From positions 25,356 to 70,295 of the IMG/VR virus record IMGVR_UViG_3300037963_002293: a DNA stretch of 44,940 nt, one strand, 5' to 3'. Each line of letters opens with the position of its first letter. The first letter of the stretch is position 1. The stretch is from a virus. Made by a program: the position numbers and the translations under genes. Below the pieces are notes generated by a model, which was not told the DNA's origin, did not search any database, and worked only from the letters and a program-made list of their open reading frames with translations. Shown here piece by piece: positions 9,650 to 32,365 of the stretch.

Positions 9650-12600
9650 TTAGATATTAATTTGAGATCCAACGACAGAAATAGAACGTTCAATATGAGT
9701 CTTAGGATTAAGTCTCGTAACAGCTACATTCATAAGTTGTCCTTGGAACTCCGATAAATCACCAATTCTAGGTAACATAACTTTGTTAGCAGATGTTGGA
9801 CCATCAACCGGAGTGATCTCTCCTCTGGTATTTAGTAGAGGAGTTTGGTTGTATGTTCTCTTCTGGATTCTGAAAGCAAAGTTATATTTATCAAAACCTG
9901 CCACAGCAGATTTGATAACATTGTTACCAGGAGTATCAAAGGCATTAGATATTCTATTTGCAAGAACACCACCATTAGTAATTGTCAAACCGGATGCTTG
10001 TGAATTACCAGAGAAAATAAGTGATTGGTTAGGGGCATTAATTCCTGCTTGTTTAACTCTACTGGAAATAACACCCCATGTAGAGGTATTAGTAACAGTA
10101 ACAGCAGCATTTGCTTCTAGTGTCAGTGAACTACCACTTTCGATAGAAGCAATTGTTCCAACCCAAGTAGGATTTGTAACGTTTCCGCCACCAGCAGAAC
10201 TATAGAGTTGATCACCTGGCATTAAATGTTGGGTAAATGTAGCACCGCCACTTGGTTTTGAAACAGTTTTACTACTAGTAGAAGTAGTTATATTCAAAGA
10301 TGCCGTATTAGAATTTAATGCAAAACTTGCACCAGAATCCATAGAAGGCCATCCAATTGGTTTATAATGTTGTACATGACTGATGATTAATCCTTCAGTA
10401 ACTCTAGATCCAGATCCACCAGCACTAATACTACCATCAGATGTATCAACAACACCATCCTGAAGACCAATTTCTAACTTAGTAGAAGATGGTGACCATT
10501 GATATTGAGCGGTATCATATGCACCGGCATAACCAAATGCAGTGTTTGCGGTGTTTAGACCAGCATACAGACTACCACATGTTAAGTGACTGTGGTTGAT
10601 TGGATAGAATGCAGTGTTATCACTACCAGAACCTTCAAAATTAGGTGTAGTTTTTCTAGTGGTCATCCAATCTTCAATACTTGCATTACTTTGGATCTGC
10701 ATCATCAAGTTAGAGAAATCTGTTTTACTAGAATAGCGATCATCATAATTAACCCATCTTGGGGTTGTTGGGTGTGCAGCCAACCATACACCAGTGTTGT
10801 ATTGTCTACCCCACTGAATTGCAGAAGCACCACCTAATCCAAGACCACCTACTTTCTTACCAGTAGAAGATAATGCGAAGTTACCAACCCAACCAGCACG
10901 TCCTGTAATACCATTCGTAATACTAATGTAGTTATTAATATTTTCATACCACATACGATATTCACCAAATGTCATCTTAAGACCAGTATCACTGAAGATA
11001 AACGAATCCATCACAGGACCATTAGTAACAAAGTTACCTGTTCTATGACTTATGAAGATATCTCCAATACTCAACCACTGTTGTTTATGAGTATGACCAG
11101 TATATAAGATATGAGGAGATGAGAGAGTAACTGTGGAATAACCATTAGATACTGCTGATACACTAATAATTTGAGCACTATAGTTTACAACTTCAGGTGT
11201 TGCTTCCTTTTCAGATGAAGATACATCATCTTCATATGAATATCTAATAGTATCACCGGGTTGAATTCTTCCTGCTCTATTTGGAAGTAACAATTGGGTG
11301 TTAGTAGATCCAGGAGCAGCGTTGTTTGCACGGAAAGTTGAACCTCCCTGTGAAGGATATGTCCAACCACCATAGTTAACAAACAGGAATCCAAGATTTC
11401 TATGATTAGCATCAGAGGAATAATCTTCTGGTAGTGGATCAGCAAGATAAAGATTAAGACCACCGCTTCCTTCATCACCAATGTCTATAATTCTAGACTT
11501 AAATACTTTCGCTAGATTTGTTTGTCCTCTAGTCTTAGTAAGGTTCCAAGACAGTTTAAATTCATTTCCTGCTTGACCAGCAGTTGTTTGACAATCCTGA
11601 AGAAGTGCTTTGTCTAGTGCAAGAACAACATTATCTTCAGATGCACCATAGAAGTACATCAAGATAGAACCACCACTAAATGTATTAGAAGTAGTACTAT
11701 TAAAGGTTAGAGTTGTTTTACCATTACTAGAATTATATTGTTTGTTCGTAACCCTTCTCTGCCAGTATCCAGTTTGACCAGGATAGTAGACTGCATAGTC
11801 TTGACCACTAGCAGGTTTAGTACCGGTTACGGTAGTACTACCAGCAGTAGTAGATGTTACAGCACCAGCAACACTAACAACATAAGTACCAGTACCACCT
11901 CTACCAGTCAATGCAACTCCAGATGGTTCATTGTAACCAGCATATCCAGAAATATAAGCATTTGCAGGAATACCAGTACCAGAAATTGATTGACCTAAGA
12001 ATAAACCACCACTAGTCATAGAAGTAACATTTAAGATACCACCAGATCCTAGCGTTGCAGTATATTCACCCTCAGTCTGGATATACATAGTATCTCCACT
12101 ACTAATAACAACATCAGAACTACCTGCGGTTACCTGAGCAGAATCTAGAGAGTACCATCTATAACCATAGAATCTAATACCATTAGATGTCATGTAATAA
12201 CCAGCACCAGATAATCTATTTCTTCCACCAGGTGACCAGTAAATCTTCGTAGTTGCGAGGGAACTTACAGCATTATAAATCGCTGCATTATCTCTAGTAT
12301 TGTTAAGAATGTGATATCTATACCAATAATTAAAATACTTAAGAGTGGAACTAGTCAATTTACCACTAATTCTGAGGTCACCTGCACGGTTTGTAGATAC
12401 GTTAGAACCAGGTTCACCTAAAGCAGGACCAATTTTAAAACTAGCAGTGTTGAATGGTGAATAACTATAGTTAACACCCAAATCAACATAAGGCATATGT
12501 ACTACCTGACCGATAGATAGTTTTTCTCTCGCAATATTGCGATCAGAGTCAGCTTCAATATTGATCCGTGCAACTTGAGTATTGTACTTTCCGTCAGGAG

Positions 12601-15600
12601 CAATATATGCATTAGGTACACTAACATTCTCTACCACCTGTGCATTCTTACCAGCAATTCTCTTAAGACCAGTGCATGTAACATCAACTGGATCAGCAAG
12701 TTTTAGTGATGTTGGAATGAAAGAACCAACAGTAACGTCTTGCGCCAAACTCTCAAGTGGATCTAGACCTTCCCAGTCACGAATATATGATGGGAAGTAT
12801 TGTTCCATTTCTCTTTGTAGAGTAATAGTATAACCAGTATTTGATGTAGGATCTCCAGTCTTAGCAAAATCGCATAGTTCTAGATCACCAATCATTACCT
12901 TACCTTTTTCAGGCCAGTAATCTAATACATTATCATTATCAAAGATATCAAATCTAGTGTTAGATCCATAAGTTGGTTGATATTCAACATCTTCGAGCAT
13001 AACAACTAGGTTTGCACGAATATCAGCGGTGTTATTTTCATTTACATACTTATACACACCGAGATAAGGTTTGTTTGGATATGATTGATCATCCTCAGCA
13101 ATCTTATAATAAGTACTTCCAAGAAGGACATAACTTCCTGGTTTAAATAATGTTTTCGCTTTCTTGAGTGCAGTTACCAAGTTAGCAGTACTTGGGTTAT
13201 TGATACTATTAAGAACAAAACAGTTAGATGGTAGAACACCAATCATTTCACCGGGTTCAAACATTTCAATGTTATCAGTTAGGTTTCTAACTGCTGTTAA
13301 TGTAATACCACTTGTAACTACGGCAGATCCAGCACTTGATGTTTGTCTGACTGTAAATACATCTGACTCAAGATGACCGGAACCATAGGTAATAAAGTCA
13401 AGTGAAGTAATATTTCCTGAACCATTCGTTGTCAAATATGCTTGAGCTGGTGTTGATCCTACTCTACCAGAATGTAGATAAACTATAGCACTTCTAGTTA
13501 GATTTGTTGTAGGTGTTCCAGTTTTTTCAACTTTAATGTCAGCATGAATTTCATACTGAGTTCCACTTTCGATTAGGTTAAGATTGGAGTGACCCTGATA
13601 ATTAACCTTTGCATATCTAGAAGTTGTAGTCGTAGTGTACTTATATCTATTTGTAGTTAAGTAACTTGTTAAGAACAATAGATTAGAACCGTCAGCAGTT
13701 GAAAGTGGAATTGAACCACTATATCTAATTCTTGCAAGTCTATAGATACCACCACCAGTTGCAACACCAGCATCATTGTATGCTGTAGTTGGTAATGTAA
13801 CATTAGTTACAGTTGCGTAACAAGTGTCAATGTTTGTTGTTTTAACAATCTTGGATGCAAATGCACCAACGAAGATATTCTTAACAAATTCGGCATCATT
13901 AACAGGATATAAGAATGTCAATTCTTTGGAGGAAATAGAACCACCAACAGAACTTCCATTGGAAACAGTGGATCCACTATTATTCCATCTTAGTCTAAAT
14001 GCAGATGCATCACCACTAGTATATCCTGAATTTAAATCATTATATCTAACTGGTTTTGGTGTCAAGAATCTTTCATTGATTGAAGTTCTTGTTAGAAGTC
14101 CTCCTGCAGGGATAGTAACTGCAGGGAAGATTTGAACTCCATTAGAATCTTGTACTTGTGGGAATGTAACTTGAGTACCCTGGTTAAATCTTCTAATTGC
14201 CTGATAACTAGAAATCGGGAATGTTCTTGCATCAGCGTCAGCTAAATCTCCATACGGAGTCTTAGATGGTTCTAAGAACAGAGTTTGATCTGTATTGAAA
14301 CCAGAAACTCTTTGGAAATCTTCGTCATCTCTTGCAACACCAAGTCTCCTTGCATTTGTTCCACCCAAAGCTTGTAATGAATTCTCATCTTCCATCTGTA
14401 GTAGTTCTACAGAGTGTCCATATGTGAATGAACCACCAGCACGTGAACTACCAGTATACATCAATCCAGTCCAGTCAAGAGATAGGTTACCTCTAATTCT
14501 TAGACCACTGAGTGATAGATTTGAACCTCTTGCACGAATTAGTCCACCACCATATCCACCACCAAATCTATTTGCGAGAGGATCCGATGGGGACTGACCA
14601 CCGATTGTACAATTTGCAAGTGAGAATGGAACATTTGAACCAGGAATTGCATCAACATTAATAAGTGGTGAAGTAAAGTTACCAGTACATGGGAGAACAG
14701 CTGCCTTAAATCTTTTTCTTAAAGCTCTATGGTTGAACGGCCAGTTAAGGTAAATGTTCTTACCAATAGCATTATCTCTAGTAGTACCAGAATCTAGATA
14801 TGGACAAACAGGAGCAAGTAGGTTGGATTTAGCAACTGCAATAAATTGTTCATCATTGGCGAAACTGGTAGCAGAAGTACTAACAGCAGTACCATTAACG
14901 TCAATGAAACCTCTACCATCTTCAATAAGTGCAGTAAACGTTCCATTGTATTGCGTACTGATAGTACCACTTACGGAGAAAGAAACAATTCCATAACCAG
15001 AAGCTTCACTTCTGTTTACAGAAATATTTGCACCAACACCAGTTGCACCTCCCTGTGGAATTAGAATTACTTTAGCACGAGAGTTGTAACCAGTACCATT
15101 AGATGCTAATGCTGAATCCAGTGCTGCTTTAATTTTAGCGGTGGTATCAGCACTAGAGAATGTAACTTGACCACTAGAGAATGCAGCACCAGTACCATCA
15201 GCACCAGCTGCACCTAGAGCAAATGGTGTAAATCCACCAAATCTACCCATGATACCAGAGTTAATACCAGCATTATCTACATATGAACTAGCATTGCCTT
15301 CTGGACTTTCAACAGCACCTACACTATCTCCAGAACTGTATAGTTCATTTGGAGAAACTTGTAGTAGTACAAATCTGTTAGATGTAGTACCAGTAATTCT
15401 CTTAAATCCATTGAATTTATAAGGAAGAGTTACACCACCATCTTCATTAGTGTCACTTCTTAGTTGCAGAATCATAGCAACATAAGAATAGAAATCCGAG
15501 TGAGGATATGGTCTAATAGAACTATCAATTTCTACACTTGGATTCAAGTCGATAACGAGGTTAATTGTTCCTCTATCATAACCATTAATAATACCAAAGA

Positions 15601-18600
15601 TTTCTGGAGTATCAAACTTGGCAATTTCATTACCAAAATCATCTGATTGTGTAAATGATACTTTAGTGTTTGCAGTGATTATTGCAGTTGTAGCATCACT
15701 TAATCCAATCTCAGTTGAACTATTGACAGTAATTGTAGTACCAGTTGCAATACCTGGACCAAAAATAATATCACCATCTTTCAATGTTGTTGTATCATTT
15801 AATGATAATACCAAAACACCAGAAGCAGCTTGAGCAGGAACTGTCTTAATAATCGCACCTTGATAACCACCAGCCCACGCAAATCCTTTTGGTAGGACTT
15901 GTCTTCTTCTTGCAAGACACCAGTTATATGCAAGAGTTGTAAATTCGTCACCATCTCTGTTAACGAATACCATGTTTGCATTATTACTATTAACATAGGT
16001 ACTCAAATCTAAATCTTCAGTGGTATTTGTAAATGATCCACTGTTACCATCATTGGTATTAGTACCACCAACTCTGGAGACTGAAACTAGAATTACAATT
16101 CTTTCGGAGTTAGCACCAGTTTGCCAATTAGCAGGATTTTCTTCAATAGTTCTATTAACGTATCTAACGTTAATAACTTTAGCAGAAGGAGTGGAATTTG
16201 TTACATCATCAGAAGTGTTCTGCAACCAGTACATTGTTGTACCAGGAATAATATAATTTCTTGCCCAGATAAATCTCTGTGCATCAGAAGGTGATCCAGA
16301 AGTTGATGTAAATTGAGCTGCATCAAGCGTTATAGTCATATAACGAGCATTTTGTGTTAGATCAAGATCTGTGCCAGGGAAATTTGTTCCACCTGGATTT
16401 AGAATACAGTCATCACCACTACCAGTTAGACTTTCAGCTGTAGCAAGTTTTGCAACTAAGAAGTCATCACTGTGAATGTATGGATCTAGTTTTGCATTAC
16501 CAGTAGCAGTTGCACTCTGTTTTCCGGTAAACATTAGTCCACCAGCAACACCTTTTGTAGATGCAGGGAATCCAGCACTAGTTTTAATGTACCATGCTTT
16601 TCTTACAAGTTTTCTAGACTCAGATGTCTTGCTATCAGATGAATAAGTTTCATCAAGAATTTCGTTCTTGGTGATAGCATCATTTATACCCAAGAAGTGA
16701 ACATTATTTAAACTAAAACCACCTTTAGAAGTTAGACCACCAGAAACACTTGAATAGAATGAGTCACTATTTCTACCATATTGATCATAGAATGATGGAG
16801 CACGATATAGATAGATACTATCTCCTCTCTTAACGGTAGACTCTAGGAATCCACCCATCCTACCAGCGGATGTACCAGTTTGTTCTTTACCAGCGTAAAT
16901 ATTACTCTTAGTAAGACCAGTACCATTAATGGTAAGTTGACATGGGAATGAAGCACCATCTAGTTTGTAATAACCTGGTTTGAGTAGAAGTTCAACATTA
17001 TCTTGTAGACCAAAACCAGATATTTCACACCAAGTTTGAGCCTGTCGGAATGTTGCTAATGGTGAGAACTTCTTAACAGCTTGTCTGTTCTGTAAGTTAA
17101 CACCAAGTGCTTTAGCACTGAATGGGTTTGGTAGAGAATTATCAACGAAACTCTCATCAATTTCACCAGTATAAGCATCAACTTTTTCTGGAACTGTATA
17201 TAGAGTTGCAGACTCTAGATCAACATCCTCAGAAATAGACTCAACAGAAGGAATGAATGGTTCTTCTTTTGCCCATCTATCATAGAAGGAAACTGTAGTT
17301 GTACAACCGGAGAAGAATACGTTCTTACTTGGTACACCAGCTAGTTGGTTATTATAATTGGTCATATATGTATGACCAGTATCATTAGCAGAAGCATTAG
17401 GTACTTTTCTTACAAGAACGAGGTTTCCAGAAGAACTTGACTTATAGTAAATATAAGTCGAATATCTATATGTTCCATTAGCTGGATTTTCACGTAATGT
17501 TACAGCACCACGATCTGGGAAATTATTCCAATCACTAGCTACAATTGATATTGTAACGGGAGATGCAGGCGTTGGGTTACCAACACTATCAACATCTACG
17601 TTTGATGTAAGAACTGATCTTAGATACTTAATATCTTTTTCACTAGCACTAGCACCATCATCAATTGGGTTTGACCAATGTTTGATAATATTTGAATAAG
17701 CACCTGTACCTAGAACATCTTCTAGATATGATTGTCTATTCTTATAGTTTTGAGTTGAACTTAGTGTAATTGTATTGGTCGTGTAGTCAATACCAGTATA
17801 ATAAAGTGATACTAAAATTTGAGGATTTAAATACGTATCTGTACTTCCAACTGTCTTAAAGTCATTAGATTCAACATACTTAAGTTGCATACCAACGTCA
17901 ACAATACCAAATGATGGAATACCAGATGCTTCCTTAACTTTAACTGCAGTAGATGTAGAGGTTAGAGCAACAGATCCTGTTGCATTATTATCCATTAGAG
18001 TTCTACTCAATGGTTGGATATAAATTCTGTTATTATCTAGTGTAACGTTAGAAGCAGAGATAAGTTGTCTCTTAATTCTCCAAGCATCGAGGAATTTAGG
18101 AGAAACATAGAGTCTATCGTTAGTATCAGTTGAGATGTAACCAGTTTTTTCTGGTCTTGCACCTTTTACAAAACCATATGCTTCCTGGTTTGCTTCTGGG
18201 AATTTCTCTCCATTAGCAATTCTAGTACTTGCAATAAACAATCTTTCATTAACAATAAGGTTTTGAATAGTTGCTCTATCAGTAACACTAAGTTTCGCAG
18301 TATTAAAGAAGTTAGATAGTGCTTTAAGTGCAGACTGACCAGCACTGTTCTTAGCGGTTGTTGCAGTAACGTTAACAACTGCGTTAGAAATTCTGTTCTC
18401 TAGGTTAGTGATGTCAACATAGTTAGATTCAGAAGACTTACGAACTTTAGGAACGTTTAGTGTAACTGTAGAAGTACCACCTGCTTGTACAACCTGCGAA
18501 CCAATATAGAAGTCACCGTTAGAGTTTGTACCAGAAGATGCAACGAAACCACCTGCGTTTTCATAACCCTGTGCAATAAACTGTTCGTAGGGCTTAAGAA

Positions 18601-21600
18601 CTCTGGTCTGTAGGTTGGGGAAACCAGTTGAGTAGTTACCAGAACCAAGACCGACATATTCCCAAGTGTGTGAAGATGCACGTAGGATAGATGGTCTGAA
18701 TAGAGGAACCGTTGGTGATGCATTAGTCATCGAAACTGTATTAGTTTCAGATGGTGCAGTGTAACTCTTATTTCTTTCTACAACAACAATTCTTCTCTCA
18801 TTTGCTTCACCATTAATACCAAATATATTTTGATTAACAGTAGAAGAAATACCTGATAACAAACCATTGTTACCACGACGATAGGAACCAGAACCGTAAA
18901 CATTTACATTAGATGTTGTGTGATCACTGTAACTACTTCTGGAATCCCAAGAAACAACCGGAGCGATAACAGGTGTAGCATTAGCAGATGATGTTGGTCC
19001 AGCGTAACTCAAATCTAGTGACTGTACAAGTCTATGACATGCTTCAGCAGTCACAGAAGTCATAGATGGAACTTCTTTAAATGGTGTGGTAGTAACTCCA
19101 GAATAGAAGTAAGCTGCGTTAGGAACAGATAAATCCTTGACTCTCTTACCACCACCAATAGCTTCAACTAGAACACGGGAATCTGCCTGTGGTGGGTTCC
19201 AGATTCTTCTAATATCATAAGTAGGACCTTCCTCGTTAACGGATGGATATAGGTAGTTAATATTGGAAGATACTCTACAGTCCTTATCGAACAAGTTAAG
19301 ACCTTCGATTTTATTAACTGTGAATGATGCAGAATTGTTTTCTAGAGGTCTTCTAGTAATTGTTTCTGAATTATTGTTAGTACCATACATGAAGGTATTA
19401 ACGTCAGATCTAATAATAGTTAGATAATAAACACCGTCTCTTACGTTAGATTCCCATGAAGTGACTTCTTCAACATCAAATACCTGGAATCTGAAATCCG
19501 TATATGGCATTCCAGTACCATCATTATCCAACCTAGTACCCTTAATGATAAATCTCTTTTCTGGTGGTTTTGGAATAGTTTGAGATGACTTAGGAATAGT
19601 ATATTCAACTCTCCATAATAGATCAGATGGTGATGAAGCACGACCATCAATAAACTTAGAAGTTTGTAGAGTTGATGGGAAACCATCGAAGTACTGTAGA
19701 ACCGTGATATCACTTGTTCCAGTAACAATCGAGATAGAACCATCTGGATTTGTTACTTCATTTGTAGTAAATACGGCTTCAGTTGTTGTTGCAAATATAA
19801 AGTTTGTTAGGAAAGAATCAGTTGCTGCATCACTAGCATTTACTTTTATATAAACTTTATTTACAGTTGGATCCCAGAAATAACCTTGTCTTTCTGCGTT
19901 TTCACCAGTAGTTTCACCCGTTGTTACACCATTGAGAGAAATTCTTGCTGTATAATTGGTTGTACCACCATCTTCTGTTTCAACAACAGTTTGAATTTGG
20001 GCTTCAGAAGAAGGAGCAACACCAGTAGTACTATAATAATCTCTGAAAAGATTATAGTTGTTGTTACTACCAAAGTTTAGGAATCTCTTAGTTACTGTTG
20101 AGCTAGTCGTATAGTCAAATGCATCAACAATAAGTTCTGGAATGTCTTTTTCTGAGTTTAGACCACCAATATCAAGATATAATCTAAATTGGTTTTGGTT
20201 AGATGTAAACGTAGCTACAAAACCAGCATTATAGTTTTTGTCACCCTGACCATTTTTCTGCCAAGTTGTATTATAGTCAATTGCATAGAATTCTGCAGTA
20301 GATTCCGTAGAAGAAATACCTCTAGGTGGAATAATAGCAGTAATCTTACCTTGTGCTGCAGGAGCAAATGATTGAGCCTGTGATCCTTTTGCACGAAGTG
20401 AAATTTGACCAAAGTTGGAGTTAGAGTTGGTGATCGACATGTCACCACCACTTTCAGACAAGAACTGGTCTGCATAACCAACTGCGAAGACCGAAACTAC
20501 CTGAATGAAAGCGCCGTCTGTTGCCTTAATGTGGAAGTGTCTCCAAGATGGACGATATTGTGCATCTGGGTCAGCATAGATTGGTGGGTTAGTAACACCA
20601 TTCGGATCATTGAAGCTTGTATTGTTTGGATCACCTTCTGCGTCTTTTGGTTGCCAGAATGCGTTATTATCTCTCTGGAGTGAAATACCCGTAAACTGTG
20701 CAACAACCATGGATTTAAAGCTCTTCTCAGAGACTTTACTACCATCAGTGTGCATACCACAAAGTCCGAAGACAGAACGTAGCGAGCAGTTAAAGATATA
20801 AGGAGAACAACCGTTAACGGTATCAATAGTTGTACTTAGAGTTCTATCACCAACAATCTCAAATTCTTCTCTTCTTGCTGCTCTTGCATTACCACCATCA
20901 AGGGTTGTATCCCAATGGTCAATCTTCTTATAGTATGTCGCAAGTTCACCATCAACAGTTCTTTGATCTGCGTATGTGAATGAAACAACTCTATGGTGTG
21001 AATACGCAGCACTAGCAGCAGTTGCGAATGTTGGAACACCACCTGAATAAGTTACACCGTTTGCAGGAGCAGTTTTTGCATCCTTGAAGGTCATCTGCCA
21101 GAAGTAGCAACCACCAGTTACTTTGAAGATTGCAGTTCTCTCATATACACCAGGAGTCTTCTCAACTAATTCAGTGTAAGTATTTGGGTTGTTAAGGATA
21201 ATTGCAAAAACACCATCTGAAGATACTGAAGAAGGTCCACTAACAGCACCACCAAGTGCTGCAAGACCAGTGTCAATACTTGAACAATCACCAGCAGACT
21301 GATATTCTACACCAACCGTATATGTTGGTTGTGCAACTGTACTACCAGCAACTGATGTGTGAGTATAACCAGAACCAAATGCATGAGCAGCTTTAATAGC
21401 AACTGTCATCGCATAGTCAATTGCCCATAAAGTAGCAGCTTTTTCGTTAGTTCCAGTAATGTGTTGTAGAGCAGTACCGTTCGTATATCTTTCACCAGCA
21501 ACAAACGTATTTGCGTTACCACCTTCACGAAGGTCAGCAATCCATGCATCAACAACAATACCAATATCTCTCTTACACTTAGAATTGATCTTGAGTACAG

Positions 21601-22435
21601 ATGGGAACTGTGTATCAGCAGCAACGAAAGCTTGATCTACAATATATCCACGAGCTTTCTCAATCATATTTGCAGCATCAAGAGTCGTAGAATTCGACTG
21701 ATATGCTGCTCCAACCTGATCACCAGTATCTGCGCCCAGAGTCGATGATGGGTTAGGAACGAATTTTGGTCTAATAACAGTTTTTCTTAAATCATAACCA
21801 ACAATGGAAGTACCGCGAGGAACGATAATACCACCATTCTTAGGGTTGAACTTATAAAGTTCCTCTTCAAATGTACCGAAAGTTAGGTTTGAATTACCAA
21901 TAACACCTGGTCTGTTATCAACAGTGTAATCACCAGGCATAACCATAATGGTATATGCTTCAAATCTGTCATTTTCGTGATCACCACCAGATCCGGGGAT
22001 ACTACTTCCTGTATCCGCTACATAACTTCTCCTAGCGGCTTCAAGAAGTGCTCTTTCAATCGTTTTGAATGGACTATTAACGTTACCACCATTATTACCA
22101 ATCGAGTCAGTCGCATTCAAGTCAGACTGATTAACATACAACATGATATTTGTTGCATTATCAAAGTCGGGGTTTGTACCACCAACAATACTACCGTCAG
22201 TATCAGATGCATCTCTATATGTCTTTAGTTTACCATCTGCACCAATGGTAAATCTCTTAATTCCTGCAGTAGCAAATGAAATTTCATTTGCAGCAGATTG
22301 GTACATACCAGTGTCAGTGTCCCCATTAAAGCTGATAGCAGGTAAGTTACCTGTCATCTTAGGTTCATTCTGTGCATTAAATTTAATTTCAACACCAGGT
22401 GCAATTCCACCTGAAGTTACTCTTGTTAGAGCCAT
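9650..22435 (-). CDS. giant virion structural protein with beta-helix-like segments (4261 aa)
   Basis: An uninterrupted 4,261-codon frame from an ATG at 22435 with a GGAG Shine-Dalgarno. The N-terminus (MALTRVTSGGIAPGVE) leads into a fibre-type module (ISFNGDTDTGMYQSAANEI). At about residues 118-180 come SPFKTIERALLEAARRS and IMVMPGDYTVDNRPG, the opening of a pectate-lyase-like right-handed beta-helix (S.FKTI..AL..A...V.PG.Y). Similar helix-like or solenoid stretches recur near residues 1790-1850 (VELLLKPGYYKLDG) and 2580-2680 (GNLSLDWTGLMYTGS). Two loops (GPGIATGTTIT, GTGIPANAYISG) share a repeated G.GI..G/N..I pattern. No signal peptide is seen. Giant structural proteins of this kind occur in cyanomyoviruses. 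Position after gp5 and before the fibre cluster, and late promoters upstream, support a virion role, perhaps a long tail appendage or one that binds or cleaves surface polysaccharide. No catalytic residues can be assigned. Confidence 0.85.
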   Translation of the reverse strand: MALTRVTSGGIAPGVEIKFNAQNEPKMTGNLPAISFNGDTDTGMYQSAANEISFATAGIKRFTIGADGKLKTYRDASDTDGSIVGGTNPDFDNATNIMLYVNQSDLNATDSIGNNGGNVNSPFKTIERALLEAARRSYVADTGSSIPGSGGDHENDRFEAYTIMVMPGDYTVDNRPGVIGNSNLTFGTFEEELYKFNPKNGGIIVPRGTSIVGYDLRKTVIRPKFVPNPSSTLGADTGDQVGAAYQSNSTTLDAANMIEKARGYIVDQAFVAADTQFPSVLKINSKCKRDIGIVVDAWIADLREGGNANTFVAGERYTNGTALQHITGTNEKAATLWAIDYAMTVAIKAAHAFGSGYTHTSVAGSTVAQPTYTVGVEYQSAGDCSSIDTGLAALGGAVSGPSSVSSDGVFAIILNNPNTYTELVEKTPGVYERTAIFKVTGGCYFWQMTFKDAKTAPANGVTYSGGVPTFATAASAAYSHHRVVSFTYADQRTVDGELATYYKKIDHWDTTLDGGNARAARREEFEIVGDRTLSTTIDTVNGCSPYIFNCSLRSVFGLCGMHTDGSKVSEKSFKSMVVAQFTGISLQRDNNAFWQPKDAEGDPNNTSFNDPNGVTNPPIYADPDAQYRPSWRHFHIKATDGAFIQVVSVFAVGYADQFLSESGGDMSITNSNSNFGQISLRAKGSQAQSFAPAAQGKITAIIPPRGISSTESTAEFYAIDYNTTWQKNGQGDKNYNAGFVATFTSNQNQFRLYLDIGGLNSEKDIPELIVDAFDYTTSSTVTKRFLNFGSNNNYNLFRDYYSTTGVAPSSEAQIQTVVETEDGGTTNYTARISLNGVTTGETTGENAERQGYFWDPTVNKVYIKVNASDAATDSFLTNFIFATTTEAVFTTNEVTNPDGSISIVTGTSDITVLQYFDGFPSTLQTSKFIDGRASSPSDLLWRVEYTIPKSSQTIPKPPEKRFIIKGTRLDNDGTGMPYTDFRFQVFDVEEVTSWESNVRDGVYYLTIIRSDVNTFMYGTNNNSETITRRPLENNSASFTVNKIEGLNLFDKDCRVSSNINYLYPSVNEEGPTYDIRRIWNPPQADSRVLVEAIGGGKRVKDLSVPNAAYFYSGVTTTPFKEVPSMTSVTAEACHRLVQSLDLSYAGPTSSANATPVIAPVVSWDSRSSYSDHTTSNVNVYGSGSYRRGNNGLLSGISSTVNQNIFGINGEANERRIVVVERNKSYTAPSETNTVSMTNASPTVPLFRPSILRASSHTWEYVGLGSGNYSTGFPNLQTRVLKPYEQFIAQGYENAGGFVASSGTNSNGDFYIGSQVVQAGGTSTVTLNVPKVRKSSESNYVDITNLENRISNAVVNVTATTAKNSAGQSALKALSNFFNTAKLSVTDRATIQNLIVNERLFIASTRIANGEKFPEANQEAYGFVKGARPEKTGYISTDTNDRLYVSPKFLDAWRIKRQLISASNVTLDNNRIYIQPLSRTLMDNNATGSVALTSTSTAVKVKEASGIPSFGIVDVGMQLKYVESNDFKTVGSTDTYLNPQILVSLYYTGIDYTTNTITLSSTQNYKNRQSYLEDVLGTGAYSNIIKHWSNPIDDGASASEKDIKYLRSVLTSNVDVDSVGNPTPASPVTISIVASDWNNFPDRGAVTLRENPANGTYRYSTYIYYKSSSSGNLVLVRKVPNASANDTGHTYMTNYNNQLAGVPSKNVFFSGCTTTVSFYDRWAKEEPFIPSVESISEDVDLESATLYTVPEKVDAYTGEIDESFVDNSLPNPFSAKALGVNLQNRQAVKKFSPLATFRQAQTWCEISGFGLQDNVELLLKPGYYKLDGASFPCQLTINGTGLTKSNIYAGKEQTGTSAGRMGGFLESTVKRGDSIYLYRAPSFYDQYGRNSDSFYSSVSGGLTSKGGFSLNNVHFLGINDAITKNEILDETYSSDSKTSESRKLVRKAWYIKTSAGFPASTKGVAGGLMFTGKQSATATGNAKLDPYIHSDDFLVAKLATAESLTGSGDDCILNPGGTNFPGTDLDLTQNARYMTITLDAAQFTSTSGSPSDAQRFIWARNYIIPGTTMYWLQNTSDDVTNSTPSAKVINVRYVNRTIEENPANWQTGANSERIVILVSVSRVGGTNTNDGNSGSFTNTTEDLDLSTYVNSNNANMVFVNRDGDEFTTLAYNWCLARRRQVLPKGFAWAGGYQGAIIKTVPAQAASGVLVLSLNDTTTLKDGDIIFGPGIATGTTITVNSSTEIGLSDATTAIITANTKVSFTQSDDFGNEIAKFDTPEIFGIINGYDRGTINLVIDLNPSVEIDSSIRPYPHSDFYSYVAMILQLRSDTNEDGGVTLPYKFNGFKRITGTTSNRFVLLQVSPNELYSSGDSVGAVESPEGNASSYVDNAGINSGIMGRFGGFTPFALGAAGADGTGAAFSSGQVTFSSADTTAKIKAALDSALASNGTGYNSRAKVILIPQGGATGVGANISVNRSEASGYGIVSFSVSGTISTQYNGTFTALIEDGRGFIDVNGTAVSTSATSFANDEQFIAVAKSNLLAPVCPYLDSGTTRDNAIGKNIYLNWPFNHRALRKRFKAAVLPCTGNFTSPLINVDAIPGSNVPFSLANCTIGGQSPSDPLANRFGGGYGGGLIRARGSNLSLSGLRIRGNLSLDWTGLMYTGSSRAGGSFTYGHSVELLQMEDENSLQALGGTNARRLGVARDDEDFQRVSGFNTDQTLFLEPSKTPYGDLADADARTFPISSYQAIRRFNQGTQVTFPQVQDSNGVQIFPAVTIPAGGLLTRTSINERFLTPKPVRYNDLNSGYTSGDASAFRLRWNNSGSTVSNGSSVGGSISSKELTFLYPVNDAEFVKNIFVGAFASKIVKTTNIDTCYATVTNVTLPTTAYNDAGVATGGGIYRLARIRYSGSIPLSTADGSNLLFLTSYLTTNRYKYTTTTTSRYAKVNYQGHSNLNLIESGTQYEIHADIKVEKTGTPTTNLTRSAIVYLHSGRVGSTPAQAYLTTNGSGNITSLDFITYGSGHLESDVFTVRQTSSAGSAVVTSGITLTAVRNLTDNIEMFEPGEMIGVLPSNCFVLNSINNPSTANLVTALKKAKTLFKPGSYVLLGSTYYKIAEDDQSYPNKPYLGVYKYVNENNTADIRANLVVMLEDVEYQPTYGSNTRFDIFDNDNVLDYWPEKGKVMIGDLELCDFAKTGDPTSNTGYTITLQREMEQYFPSYIRDWEGLDPLESLAQDVTVGSFIPTSLKLADPVDVTCTGLKRIAGKNAQVVENVSVPNAYIAPDGKYNTQVARINIEADSDRNIAREKLSIGQVVHMPYVDLGVNYSYSPFNTASFKIGPALGEPGSNVSTNRAGDLRISGKLTSSTLKYFNYWYRYHILNNTRDNAAIYNAVSSLATTKIYWSPGGRNRLSGAGYYMTSNGIRFYGYRWYSLDSAQVTAGSSDVVISSGDTMYIQTEGEYTATLGSGGILNVTSMTSGGLFLGQSISGTGIPANAYISGYAGYNEPSGVALTGRGGTGTYVVSVAGAVTSTTAGSTTVTGTKPASGQDYAVYYPGQTGYWQRRVTNKQYNSSNGKTTLTFNSTTSNTFSGGSILMYFYGASEDNVVLALDKALLQDCQTTAGQAGNEFKLSWNLTKTRGQTNLAKVFKSRIIDIGDEGSGGLNLYLADPLPEDYSSDANHRNLGFLFVNYGGWTYPSQGGSTFRANNAAPGSTNTQLLLPNRAGRIQPGDTIRYSYEDDVSSSEKEATPEVVNYSAQIISVSAVSNGYSTVTLSSPHILYTGHTHKQQWLSIGDIFISHRTGNFVTNGPVMDSFIFSDTGLKMTFGEYRMWYENINNYISITNGITGRAGWVGNFALSSTGKKVGGLGLGGASAIQWGRQYNTGVWLAAHPTTPRWVNYDDRYSSKTDFSNLMMQIQSNASIEDWMTTRKTTPNFEGSGSDNTAFYPINHSHLTCGSLYAGLNTANTAFGYAGAYDTAQYQWSPSSTKLEIGLQDGVVDTSDGSISAGGSGSRVTEGLIISHVQHYKPIGWPSMDSGASFALNSNTASLNITTSTSSKTVSKPSGGATFTQHLMPGDQLYSSAGGGNVTNPTWVGTIASIESGSSLTLEANAAVTVTNTSTWGVISSRVKQAGINAPNQSLIFSGNSQASGLTITNGGVLANRISNAFDTPGNNVIKSAVAGFDKYNFAFRIQKRTYNQTPLLNTRGEITPVDGPTSANKVMLPRIGDLSEFQGQLMNVAVTRLNPKTHIERSISVVGSQINI

Positions 22436-29146: not shown

Positions 29147-31468
29147 TTATAACTGGTAACTATAAATTGCCCACAAACCAGATGTAGGAAGTGTACTACC
29201 GACAGCTGTTTCAGTTGCTTTGTGCATTGCTTGAGTAGAAGATGAATTGTTAATAACAGTAGGACTAGTATTTTTAGACCCACCTGAAGACAATGATCTA
29301 TTTTCCCTCTGGACAGAACCTAAATTAGATCCTGATGATGGTGGAGTTGGCGTTATCTTTGGTGAGGGTGTTGAAGCACCAGGAGGCGCATCTAAATTGG
29401 ATGGTTCATTACTAGGAGAAAGTTTTATACCACCAGCTCCAGCAGTATAAGGTGCTTTAAAATTATAATGACTGAGTGGATCAGATTTACCAGTAAGAAC
29501 ACCACCAGTCCAACCAGTTCCAGTTTCCCAATGAAGGTGAGGTCCTGATGATCGACCAGTAGAACCAGTTCTACCAACCATCTCTCCCGCTTTTACCTTC
29601 TGTCCAATCTGCGCTATATCTTTCTCCAACATGTGACCATATAGATGATATAGTCCAGAGTTTTCTCTATACACAACAAAATTGCCCCATCCTCTTGGAT
29701 CTCCATTCCCTCTAGAAAGAAGTCCAACATCAACAACTTCTGCATCAGCAACTGCTACAAGAGGTGATCCACTTTCTGCTCCAATATCTGTTCCACCATG
29801 TGCTTTTGAGCCTCTCATTTTACCATACTCGCTAGTGAGTACAGGATTTCCCATTACAGTTCCACTAGCAGCTACAGGTTGAGAATCTGTGGTAGTGGTG
29901 GTGTCATTCTCAGAATCCATGCCTCCATATTGTTGGTCAAACGCTTGAACTAGACCCTCAACTTTACTTGCATCTACACGTCTTGTTTGTGTCTTCACTC
30001 CTCTAGAAGTTCTTGCTTGTACTTTTGTAGTAACTGACCAACGATGACCATCCCCATCTTTCATTCTGGTGAAAGTATATTTTTTACCATCGAGTTCAAC
30101 AGTCTTCGCCGCTCCCATCTTAACGCCATAATTTCTCTGACCAAGATCTGCAGCTGAAGAAGTCTTTGTTAAAGGTTTGGCTGTTGCTGGTGGTGTTGAT
30201 GTTTTAGGTGCTGTAGTGGTTGATGATCGTCTACCTCTTCGATTTCTTCCTCCCTGACCAGATCTATTCTGTGATGGTTGAGTTTTTTTATTACCTCCTC
30301 CGCCACCAAATAAACCACCGACAAGATTAGTAATACCAGTCCATGCATTACCAAGTAATCCCTTAACAAAGTTTGCAGCACTTCCAAGTAAACTTCCTAC
30401 GTTACCAAGATCAATTCCTTTCAGTGGATTATTAAATAAACCACTAACTAAGTCACCAATTTTTGATACAGCACCACCAGTAATTGCATTTAGTAATGAT
30501 CCAATAATTCCTGGTACAACTTCAATTAATGTTTTAGGAATCTCCATCAAAGTATTGAAGAATTCCCCTGGATTAGTCAACCACTTAAGTGTAATAACAT
30601 CCTTGGCTACATTAAAGAAAGCCATGAATATTTTAAATCCACCACCAAAAAGTTTCTTAGTAAATTCCCACCACGGTTCAACGAATCTTTTCCATAGGAA
30701 CTTTAAGGCACCCGGAATAGCTCCTATAAACTTAACTAATGATTGAACTTTTTTTCTATTCTTTGGATCAGCAACCCAATCTAAGACTTTATATAAAATA
30801 AAATCTTTAAAGATTCCCATTAAGAAATCAAATATATTACCGAGACCTTTTTTAGCAGCTGATACTACAGGGTTACTTTTCTTCCTACCTTTCTTTGCTT
30901 TATTAGCTTCCTGTTTTTCTTCTTCCTCGTCTCTCTTCTCAGCTTCTAATAATTTTCTTTCTTTCTCTTTTTCTTTCTTTGTATCTTTATATTCTTTATT
31001 ATCGTTATCTAATTCTTTTACTTCTACTTCAAGAATCTGATCTGCAGTTTGTTTTATCTGTTCCAACAAACCAAGTACATTATCTTTAGTAGGTCCAGTC
31101 TTTACAATTGCAGAAGACTTCTGACTAGTTGGACCTAATGATGAAGATAATGCTCCACCCTCTTTTATGGTTCTACCCTGTACGGCAAGACCACCATTCT
31201 CAGATCTAACAATAGCAGAGTCGTTTGTTCGTTTAACTAATCCTCCGCCGCGGTTTCCACCACCTCCTCGTCCTCCACCGATACCACCTCTCAGGGTGTT
31301 TCTTGCACCTTGTCTTACTCCTGCTCTTATTCCTTGTCTTAATCCGCCCTTAGCTCCCGCTCGCACACCAGTCATTAGAGCACTACGACCGCCCATAAGA
31401 GCACCACGACCTACTCCTCCTAGGAGTCCTTTTAATAATGGTGCAGCTGCTGCGAGTGGTGCGGGCAT
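29147..31468 (-). CDS. tape-measure-like tail protein with C-terminal M23 endopeptidase domain (773 aa)
   Basis: Start taken at the ATG at 31468 (MPAPLAAAAPLLKG), just after the frameshift ORF stop (31470). The frame extends 17 codons further but overlaps that ORF. The N-terminus is glycine/arginine-rich (to about 80), then come a coiled charged helix (about 140-200), a hydrophobic core with VLDWVADPKNRKKVQSLVKF (about 228-247), and more helices to 390. The M23/LytM domain is at about 540-670, with zinc ligands His557 and Asp561 in AHGGTDIGA and His646 (with His644) in GPHLHWE. A proline/serine tail follows. M23 enzymes cut peptide crosslinks. It is the paralogue of the next gene. Inferred role: tape measure plus entry peptidase. 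Confidence 0.8.
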   Translation of the reverse strand: MPAPLAAAAPLLKGLLGGVGRGALMGGRSALMTGVRAGAKGGLRQGIRAGVRQGARNTLRGGIGGGRGGGGNRGGGLVKRTNDSAIVRSENGGLAVQGRTIKEGGALSSSLGPTSQKSSAIVKTGPTKDNVLGLLEQIKQTADQILEVEVKELDNDNKEYKDTKKEKEKERKLLEAEKRDEEEEKQEANKAKKGRKKSNPVVSAAKKGLGNIFDFLMGIFKDFILYKVLDWVADPKNRKKVQSLVKFIGAIPGALKFLWKRFVEPWWEFTKKLFGGGFKIFMAFFNVAKDVITLKWLTNPGEFFNTLMEIPKTLIEVVPGIIGSLLNAITGGAVSKIGDLVSGLFNNPLKGIDLGNVGSLLGSAANFVKGLLGNAWTGITNLVGGLFGGGGGNKKTQPSQNRSGQGGRNRRGRRSSTTTAPKTSTPPATAKPLTKTSSAADLGQRNYGVKMGAAKTVELDGKKYTFTRMKDGDGHRWSVTTKVQARTSRGVKTQTRRVDASKVEGLVQAFDQQYGGMDSENDTTTTTDSQPVAASGTVMGNPVLTSEYGKMRGSKAHGGTDIGAESGSPLVAVADAEVVDVGLLSRGNGDPRGWGNFVVYRENSGLYHLYGHMLEKDIAQIGQKVKAGEMVGRTGSTGRSSGPHLHWETGTGWTGGVLTGKSDPLSHYNFKAPYTAGAGGIKLSPSNEPSNLDAPPGASTPSPKITPTPPSSGSNLGSVQRENRSLSSGGSKNTSPTVINNSSSTQAMHKATETAVGSTLPTSGLWAIYSYQL

Positions 31469-31469
31469 A

Positions 31470-31655
31470 TTAACTCTGTTGACTCTTTTGACGTTCGTTT
31501 TCTTCTTTAATATAATCAACTAACATTTGAACATAGATTTCTCGTTCCCAAGGAATCATGTTATCTAGTTCAGTTAAACTATATTTGTGGTGTTGCATCA
31601 TAGCAAAGTTAACTTGAAAATAATTTTCAAGTGATTCATGAGATAGGGCTATGAG
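31470..31655 (-). CDS. gp26 -1 frameshift extension (T-domain-like), 61 codons
   Basis: In the -1 frame relative to gp26 the sequence is open from the slippery site (31655-31661) to a TAA at 31470-31472, adding 61 residues to make a gp26 fusion of about 298 aa. It contains HESLENYFQVNFAMMQHH and YSLTELDNMIPWEREIYV. The second stretch resembles the short C-terminal extension of lambda-type GT tail chaperones that recruit the tape measure. A separate ORF could start at the double ATG at 31596-31601 (43 aa), but no Shine-Dalgarno precedes it, and the frame reads like protein upstream of those ATGs. It ends one base before the M23 tape-measure start. Prediction, not demonstrated. Confidence 0.6.
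   Translation of the reverse strand, partial: LIALSHESLENYFQVNFAMMQHHKYSLTELDNMIPWEREIYVQMLVDYIKEENERQKSQQS
31612..31632 (-). other. perfect 9-bp hairpin downstream of the gp26 slippery site
   Basis: ACTTGAAAA/TTTTCAAGT with a 3-base loop, 22 bases after the heptamer. It is AT-rich and further away than usual stimulators, so a role in frameshifting is uncertain. Confidence 0.5.
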
Positions 31656-32365
31656 AAAAAACTTGCTAGACCCTCAATCACTACTGCACTCGTTACTTTA
31701 GTATTTGGATTTGTAACAGAAACAGTGTGAGATAATTTTGGCATAGTCTCAAAGAATTTTTGAACCTTCAGGAATTGTTTAGTATCCATCCCTTCTAAAA
31801 ATTCATTGATCTCTTTCTTTGAACAATTGGAAGCTTCATATACTTCTTCACCATCTACAATTTGATCAATACACATAGATGCAATTTCAAATACATCATC
31901 AACTTCAGATGAACCTTCTGCCATATTATTTTTAATGAATAAATCCATACTTGGATATTTCATTACAACTGATACATCATCATTCATTTTTATAATATTT
32001 GAATGATCTTCCTGTTTTTCAACAGTAATTTCATCCAGATCAATTTGTACATCAACTGTAGTTACTTCATCATCAGGACATGTGATCTTAAGATCTACAG
32101 TTTCACCTACAGATTTTCCTCTAATATTTAAGAAGATGTATTCGATATCAAACAAAGCAAGATTATCAATTTTAAATCTGGGTGTTTGAATACAGTTAGA
32201 CAAAATAGTTTTAACTGCATTTGCCATCTGGGATTCATCCTCAGTTTCCATAGCAAGTAAAAGAATTTTTTCTTCTTTCACTAGGAAAGGTCTATATTTA
32301 ATCTTCTTATTAGTAGAAGGAACAACCAACTCATAAGTTGGCGTAGAAAGTTTTGGTAATGTCAT
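31649..32365 (-). CDS. 26: baseplate/tail assembly protein gp26-like (238 aa)
   Basis: The N-terminus MTLPKLSTPTYELVVPSTNK followed by KYRPFLVKEEKILLLAMET is the signature of the T4 gp26 family (T4 base plate protein family), present in cyanophages. The central part, FDIEYIFLNIRGKSVGE, is also typical. In T4 this protein is assigned to baseplate hub assembly. Its position directly upstream of tape-measure-like genes, and the slippery heptamer TTTTTTC at 31655-31661 two codons before the TAG, suggest that it also acts as a tail assembly chaperone with a frameshifted form. A perfect late promoter (32400-32407) lies 35 bases upstream. Confidence 0.85.
   Translation of the reverse strand: MTLPKLSTPTYELVVPSTNKKIKYRPFLVKEEKILLLAMETEDESQMANAVKTILSNCIQTPRFKIDNLALFDIEYIFLNIRGKSVGETVDLKITCPDDEVTTVDVQIDLDEITVEKQEDHSNIIKMNDDVSVVMKYPSMDLFIKNNMAEGSSEVDDVFEIASMCIDQIVDGEEVYEASNCSKKEINEFLEGMDTKQFLKVQKFFETMPKLSHTVSVTNPNTKVTSAVVIEGLASFFS
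31655..31661 (-). promoter_or_regulatory. candidate -1 ribosomal slippery heptamer TTTTTTC
   Basis: T TTT TTC in gp26 codon phase fits the X XXY YYZ rule. It is followed by TCA TAG in frame 0 and by the 61-codon open frame in -1. Confidence 0.6.

Follow-up and report, generated by a model that had tools for sequence, protein, structure and literature searches.

The gp26 locus of the window, as we call the whole 44,940-nucleotide stretch of viral DNA analyzed here, very probably encodes a −1 frameshifted tail assembly chaperone in the style of lambda G/GT, from a T4-like marine phage. We read the locus as a G/GT-like pair of short and long products because the slippery heptamer and the open −1 frame are conserved, selection acts on the −1 frame ahead of its first ATG, T4 gp51 holds the equivalent of the fusion in a single frame, and gp26 is predicted to adopt a chaperone fold. 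Coordinates of the features are collected in Table 1.

Table 1. Features of the gp26 locus in the window, with related loci in Ackermannviridae
Feature	Position	Strand	Basis or remark
gp26, short tail assembly chaperone (TAC-N / "G" form), 238 aa	31649..32365	minus	PF12322 T4_baseplate, phrog_150, predicted fold
Slippery heptamer T_TTT_TTC	31661..31655	minus	in phase X_XXY_YYZ, one sense codon (TCA) before the stop
Zero-frame stop TAG of gp26	31649..31651	minus	read from the sequence
−1 frame extension ("T" domain, gp51 C-terminal part), 63 aa from the two slip-site Phe codons	31470..31661	minus	phrog_634, pN/pS
First ATG pair of the −1 frame	31596..31601 (ATGs at 31601, 31598)	minus	position unconserved, no Shine-Dalgarno, probably not a start
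SD-like GAGGG, candidate frameshift stimulator	31671..31675	minus	9 nt upstream of the heptamer
Perfect 9-bp hairpin	31632..31612	minus	22 nt downstream of the heptamer
M23 peptidase gene, candidate tape measure or hub protein	29147..31468	minus	PF01551, E 1.2e-20
Ackermannviridae loci with −1 extension, no canonical heptamer	L192:2188-2260; L206:2250-2430; L208	L208 reverse strand	

Window gp26 was matched by the PF12322 profile (T4_baseplate, gp26/gp51) with an E value of 2.1e-72 (243.8 bits versus a cutoff of 24.5) and by phrog_150 (baseplate hub) with an E value of 1.2e-79. Its 3′ end reads AGT TTT TTC TCA TAG, and the in-phase T TTT TTC that the preliminary description had placed at the close of the gene (TTT TTC TCA TAG) is indeed present. 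The bare word TTTTTTC is not rare in the window, with 17 occurrences versus 18 expected; among the ten main minus-strand genes, the gp26 site is the sole in-phase case of T_TTT_TTN. Translated from the heptamer (31661..31470), the −1 frame reads FFLIALSHESLENYFQVNFAMMQHHKYSLTELDNMIPWEREIYVQMLVDYIKEENERQKSQQS and terminates at a TAA (31472..31470), with the ATG of the M23 gene (31468) following one base on; the 61-codon open frame ending just ahead of that gene had thus been described correctly. The extension was matched by phrog_634 ("baseplate hub assembly catalyst," gp51) with an E value of 6.3e-30. Since the window is AT rich and the heptamer word common, the −1 frame might stand open by chance or be a decayed relic without a product. 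We find this hardly credible, as a −1 frame open for at least 61 codons was seen at 0 of 9,104 in-gene codon positions of the window, and the conservation and selection described below speak against it as well.

A comparison of gp26 3′ ends among relatives, proposed in the preliminary description, was conducted. In the first 79 homologues fetched from viral contigs (53 to 100% identity), T_TTT_TTC was found at the same place without exception (79/79), and the −1 frame was open and alignable in all. After distant loci were added, an in-phase T_TTT_TT[CTG] was present in 184 gp26 loci (165 TTTTTTC, 17 TTTTTTT, and 2 TTTTTTG), every one of which has an open and conserved extension frame. These include Prochlorococcus and Synechococcus phages, the pelagiphages Mosig and HTVC008M, KVP40-like and PX29 Straboviridae, Stenotrophomonas DLP6, Desulfovibrio phage 7757, the Sinorhizobium phages phiN3 and phiM9, and phages of Rhizobium, Agrobacterium, and Ochrobactrum. 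A query with the Desulfovibrio phage against viral contigs returned no matches. The patterns used to retrieve loci left the junction out, and the heptamer was therefore not selected for by the search.

Under an 85% identity limit, the 184 loci reduce to 70 representatives. Seven different residues (S, D, A, N, G, H, and T) precede Phe-Phe in these, but the codon for that residue ends in T in 70/70 (log10 P −18.6) and the first Phe codon is TTT in all 70 (log10 P −19.4), values that gauge constraint and not exact probability, as homologues share descent and independence is overstated. Other Phe-Phe pairs in the same genes were encoded as T_TTT_TTC in 0 of 78 cases and as T_TTT_TTT in 1 of 78. 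Judged from these alignments, conservation of the heptamer is far beyond chance. Mosig and some contigs have their zero-frame stop eight codons past the heptamer, which argues that the heptamer is kept for more than being a terminus. Six or seven T residues at the junction of all loci would also suit slippage of RNA polymerase on the T run, which would yield transcripts of altered length that fuse the two frames. However, T runs of six or seven rarely support transcriptional slippage; the run never exceeds seven, the base before it is never T, and the exact X_XXY_YYZ codon phase is fixed, such that we consider this explanation very unlikely.

For codons lying after the heptamer but ahead of the usual first Met, pN/pS was 0.21 in the −1 frame versus 1.5 and 1.8 in the other frames, and stops within the extension numbered 0 in the −1 frame versus 294 and 255 in the other two (46 distinct sequences for both measures). 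By this measure of sequence change, the −1 frame ahead of its first ATG is under purifying selection, which bears out the earlier remark that the extension is protein-like before that point. The lack of a Shine-Dalgarno at the ATG pair, likewise remarked upon, was confirmed, as the anti-SD duplexes calculated for the ATGs at 31601 and 31598 were −0.2 and +1.3 kcal/mol, amounting to no useful Shine-Dalgarno. These results bear on the alternative of a separate small gene ("gp51 baseplate hub assembly catalyst") for the extension, with its own start after gp26, as the extension is labeled in many other GenBank records and as a UAAUG overlap in some loci, such as the KVP40-like L086, would allow. 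Against it, the position of the first Met varies among homologues, and the first 30 extension codons of S-CAM8, Desulfovibrio phage 7757, and locus L129 are devoid of ATG, GTG, and TTG. The extension is also unannotated in the GenBank records of two cyanophages, ACG-2014b (L081) and S-CAM8 (L083), codons from the heptamer onward, ahead of any Met, are under purifying selection, and the fixed T_TTT_TTY would be left unexplained. Because the first Met is unconserved, some homologues lack a start codon, and selection acts upstream of the Met, a separate gene cannot explain the data generally, and we regard this alternative as improbable.

The frameshift fusion has a natural counterpart in T4. T4 gp51 consists of a PF12322 domain (E 3.9e-52) and the extension, all in one frame, and T4 gp26, a short form that lacks the heptamer, consists of PF12322 alone (E 8.8e-64). 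When the proteins were aligned jointly, the C-terminal FF of gp26 and the start of the extension shared columns of gp51. The window locus thus resembles T4 in having the gp26 short form and a gp51-like long form in which that short form is joined to the extension; it differs in that the two forms come from separate genes in T4, with no frameshift involved, and the FF of T4 gp26 is encoded as G_TTC_TTT. Short and long forms with a common N terminus are a prediction from sequence in the window, whereas they are two genes in T4 and its relatives.

An AlphaFold2 model of window gp26 (mean pLDDT, 86) was compared with the PDB using VIA-align, and the best matches were 3fgx, 2ob9, and 3klu (Z of 8.0, 7.9, and 7.2, respectively; next match, 3.8). 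The likeness to these chaperone-type proteins, rbstp2171, the HK97 tail assembly chaperone, and YqbN, respectively, is a moderate-Z match of a predicted model that spans gp26 residues 1 to 95, with 84 to 86 residues aligned at 8% identity; residues 96 to 238 hold further domains outside the match. The model supports a TAC-N fold for window gp26. The long form was modeled through gp51, the natural one-frame equivalent of the fusion, and in this model (pLDDT, 89) the extension appears as a small helical domain starting at the junction. A PDB fold search with the L096 gp51 model gave no confident match, and a sequence search of solved structures gave chance matches only.

No match was obtained by hhalign of gp26 with lambda G and P2 E, a comparison of weak power with single sequences opposite. 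The extension was also compared with lambda T by hhalign, as the preliminary description had suggested, and this comparison, equally weak in power with a single sequence opposite, gave no match either. Because sequence similarity was not detected, the link to lambda G/GT rests on fold, gene order, and mechanism. The two systems are alike in a −1 slip near the 3′ end, in making short plus long products, and in the position of the long form just upstream of the next tail gene; they differ in that the window proteins have no detectable sequence similarity to those of lambda, and in the slippery sequence, which in lambda is G GGA AAG. The heptamer, the −1 frame, selection, the gp51 equivalent, and the predicted fold uphold the lambda-style fusion originally proposed; sequence comparison with lambda G/T and P2 E lent it no support. 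Phage Adele (Vandenendeviridae / Andersonviridae) likewise has a conserved poly-T slippery site and an open −1 frame in its chaperone, although it belongs to another phage group and its motif is GTTTTT (PMC12846349).

Two elements were considered as stimulators of slippage. A purine-rich GAGGG or GAAGG lies approximately 9 nt upstream of the heptamer; across the 70 representatives, anti-SD pairing averaged −6.38 kcal/mol versus −5.17 kcal/mol in synonymous recodings, and none of 300 recodings paired as strongly, although the effect is modest. A similar spacing of an SD-like element to the slip site is found in dnaX. The 9-bp hairpin reported downstream in the preliminary description is real and perfect, and the 123 nt around it fold better than shuffles (z −2.8), but it is not conserved in relatives. 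It is broken in the close relative L007 and absent or different in most others, and a conserved downstream RNA structure was not found in relatives; the hairpin was consequently disfavored. Given that not even the closest relatives conserve the hairpin, it is unlikely to be the stimulator, and the SD-like GAGGG appears to be the better candidate.

In the mechanism that we propose, most ribosomes would halt at the TAG and produce gp26, the short "G" form. We infer that slippage occurs in vivo at some rate, in that a fraction of ribosomes would slip back one base at U_UUU_UUC, probably aided by pairing of the GAGGG 9 nt upstream with 16S rRNA. The slip would give a 298-amino-acid fusion of gp26 and the extension, the long "GT" form, equivalent to T4 gp51. 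We further infer that these proteins act as chaperones for the protein encoded by the next gene. On the lambda model, the short form would coat the tape measure, and the long form would use its helical C-terminal domain to recruit tail tube or hub subunits.

Both T4 gp26 and T4 gp51 appear in the literature among the hub assembly chaperones, with gp51 reported as necessary for assembly yet missing from the particle (PMC3004832). T4-like tail assembly chaperones are the subject of Vladimirov, Gautam & Davidson 2022 (Virology 566:9-15), as cited in PMC10885494 and PMC12846349. In the PRFect paper (PMC10885494), that study is the reference given for certain T4-like phages encoding their short and long forms as two genes; in the paper on Adele (PMC12846349), it is the reference for poly-T −1 slippery signals of T4-like TAC-N genes. 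As represented by these citing papers, the system shares with the window the gp26/gp51-type short and long forms and the poly-T −1 signals, and the mechanism in the window very probably exemplifies one that has been described before. The earlier statement that no frameshift had been described in gp26 of T4-like phages is, going by the same citations of Vladimirov et al. 2022 for poly-T sites, apparently outdated. The frameshift reading would correct the annotation of hundreds of T4-like marine phage genomes, in which the extension is miscalled a separate "gp51" or missed. It would also link two long-unexplained T4 proteins, gp26 and gp51, with the tape-measure chaperones of lambda (G/GT), making their role directly testable. 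One frameshifted gene versus two genes would show cleanly how recoding and gene duplication can serve as alternative solutions.

The distribution of the two arrangements was surveyed in 23 phage records. PF12322 was present in one copy in every heptamer-bearing phage and in two copies in T4, Aeromonas ZHF, Acinetobacter fHyAci03, and Morganella Rgz1; Vibrio YC (Ackermannviridae) is the one exception, a single-copy phage without the heptamer. The short paralogues of the two-copy phages carry no heptamer. The gp51 genes form one clade (support, 100/100), and in a second tree gp51 and the short paralogues were grouped (support, 94/93). Because the frameshift state is widely spread, it is the likelier ancestral state, although the trees are not firmly rooted.

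Other arrangements were observed in the wider family. In the Ackermannviridae Vibrio YC, Salmonella Vi01, and Serratia 2050H1, a −1 extension is present without the canonical heptamer, at gp26/extension junctions that read GCT TTC ATG TAA, ATT TTC ATT TAA, and GTT TTC ATC TGA. The heptamer is hence not universal in the wider family. Homologues lacking the slippery site had been named in advance as counting against frameshifting; 184 loci carry it, but these Ackermannviridae keep the extension in its absence. In Bacillus phage SP-15 (L209:2200-2440), a T-domain-like segment, ESMAIFERKEMYSRLLL, lies in the +1 (= −2) frame after a gp26-like gene, and no profile match confirmed the T-domain likeness. 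Campylobacter CP220 (L210, L211) has two PF12322 genes resembling T4 gp51 and gp26, with a long form of 244 amino acids that includes the extension in frame and a short form of 228 codons. A topology test of whether the CP220 duplication is independent of that in Straboviridae gave an AU P value of 0.22.

It is possible, although we lean somewhat against it, that the chaperone family as a whole has several routes to its short and long forms, namely U_UUU_UUY slippage, two genes, a heptamer-less −1 extension, or a +1/−2 extension. Under such a reading, most phages would rely on canonical slippage, T4-type Straboviridae and CP220 on two genes, Ackermannviridae on a heptamer-less −1 extension, and Bacillus phage SP-15 on an extension in the +1 (or −2) frame. 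If this holds, the family would provide a natural series for studying the gain, replacement, and loss of recoding signals, and the gp26/gp51 gene pair of T4 would descend from a frameshifting ancestor.

The M23 gene that adjoins the chaperone probably starts at the ATG at 31468. Its product matches several tape-measure and endolysin phrogs and had no match to T4_Tape_measure (PF25671), and we regard it, on the basis of the phrog matches and of its place directly behind the chaperone, as a candidate tape measure or hub protein. Elsewhere in the tail region, the minus strand of the window carries a single open reading frame of 4,261 codons at 9650-22435.
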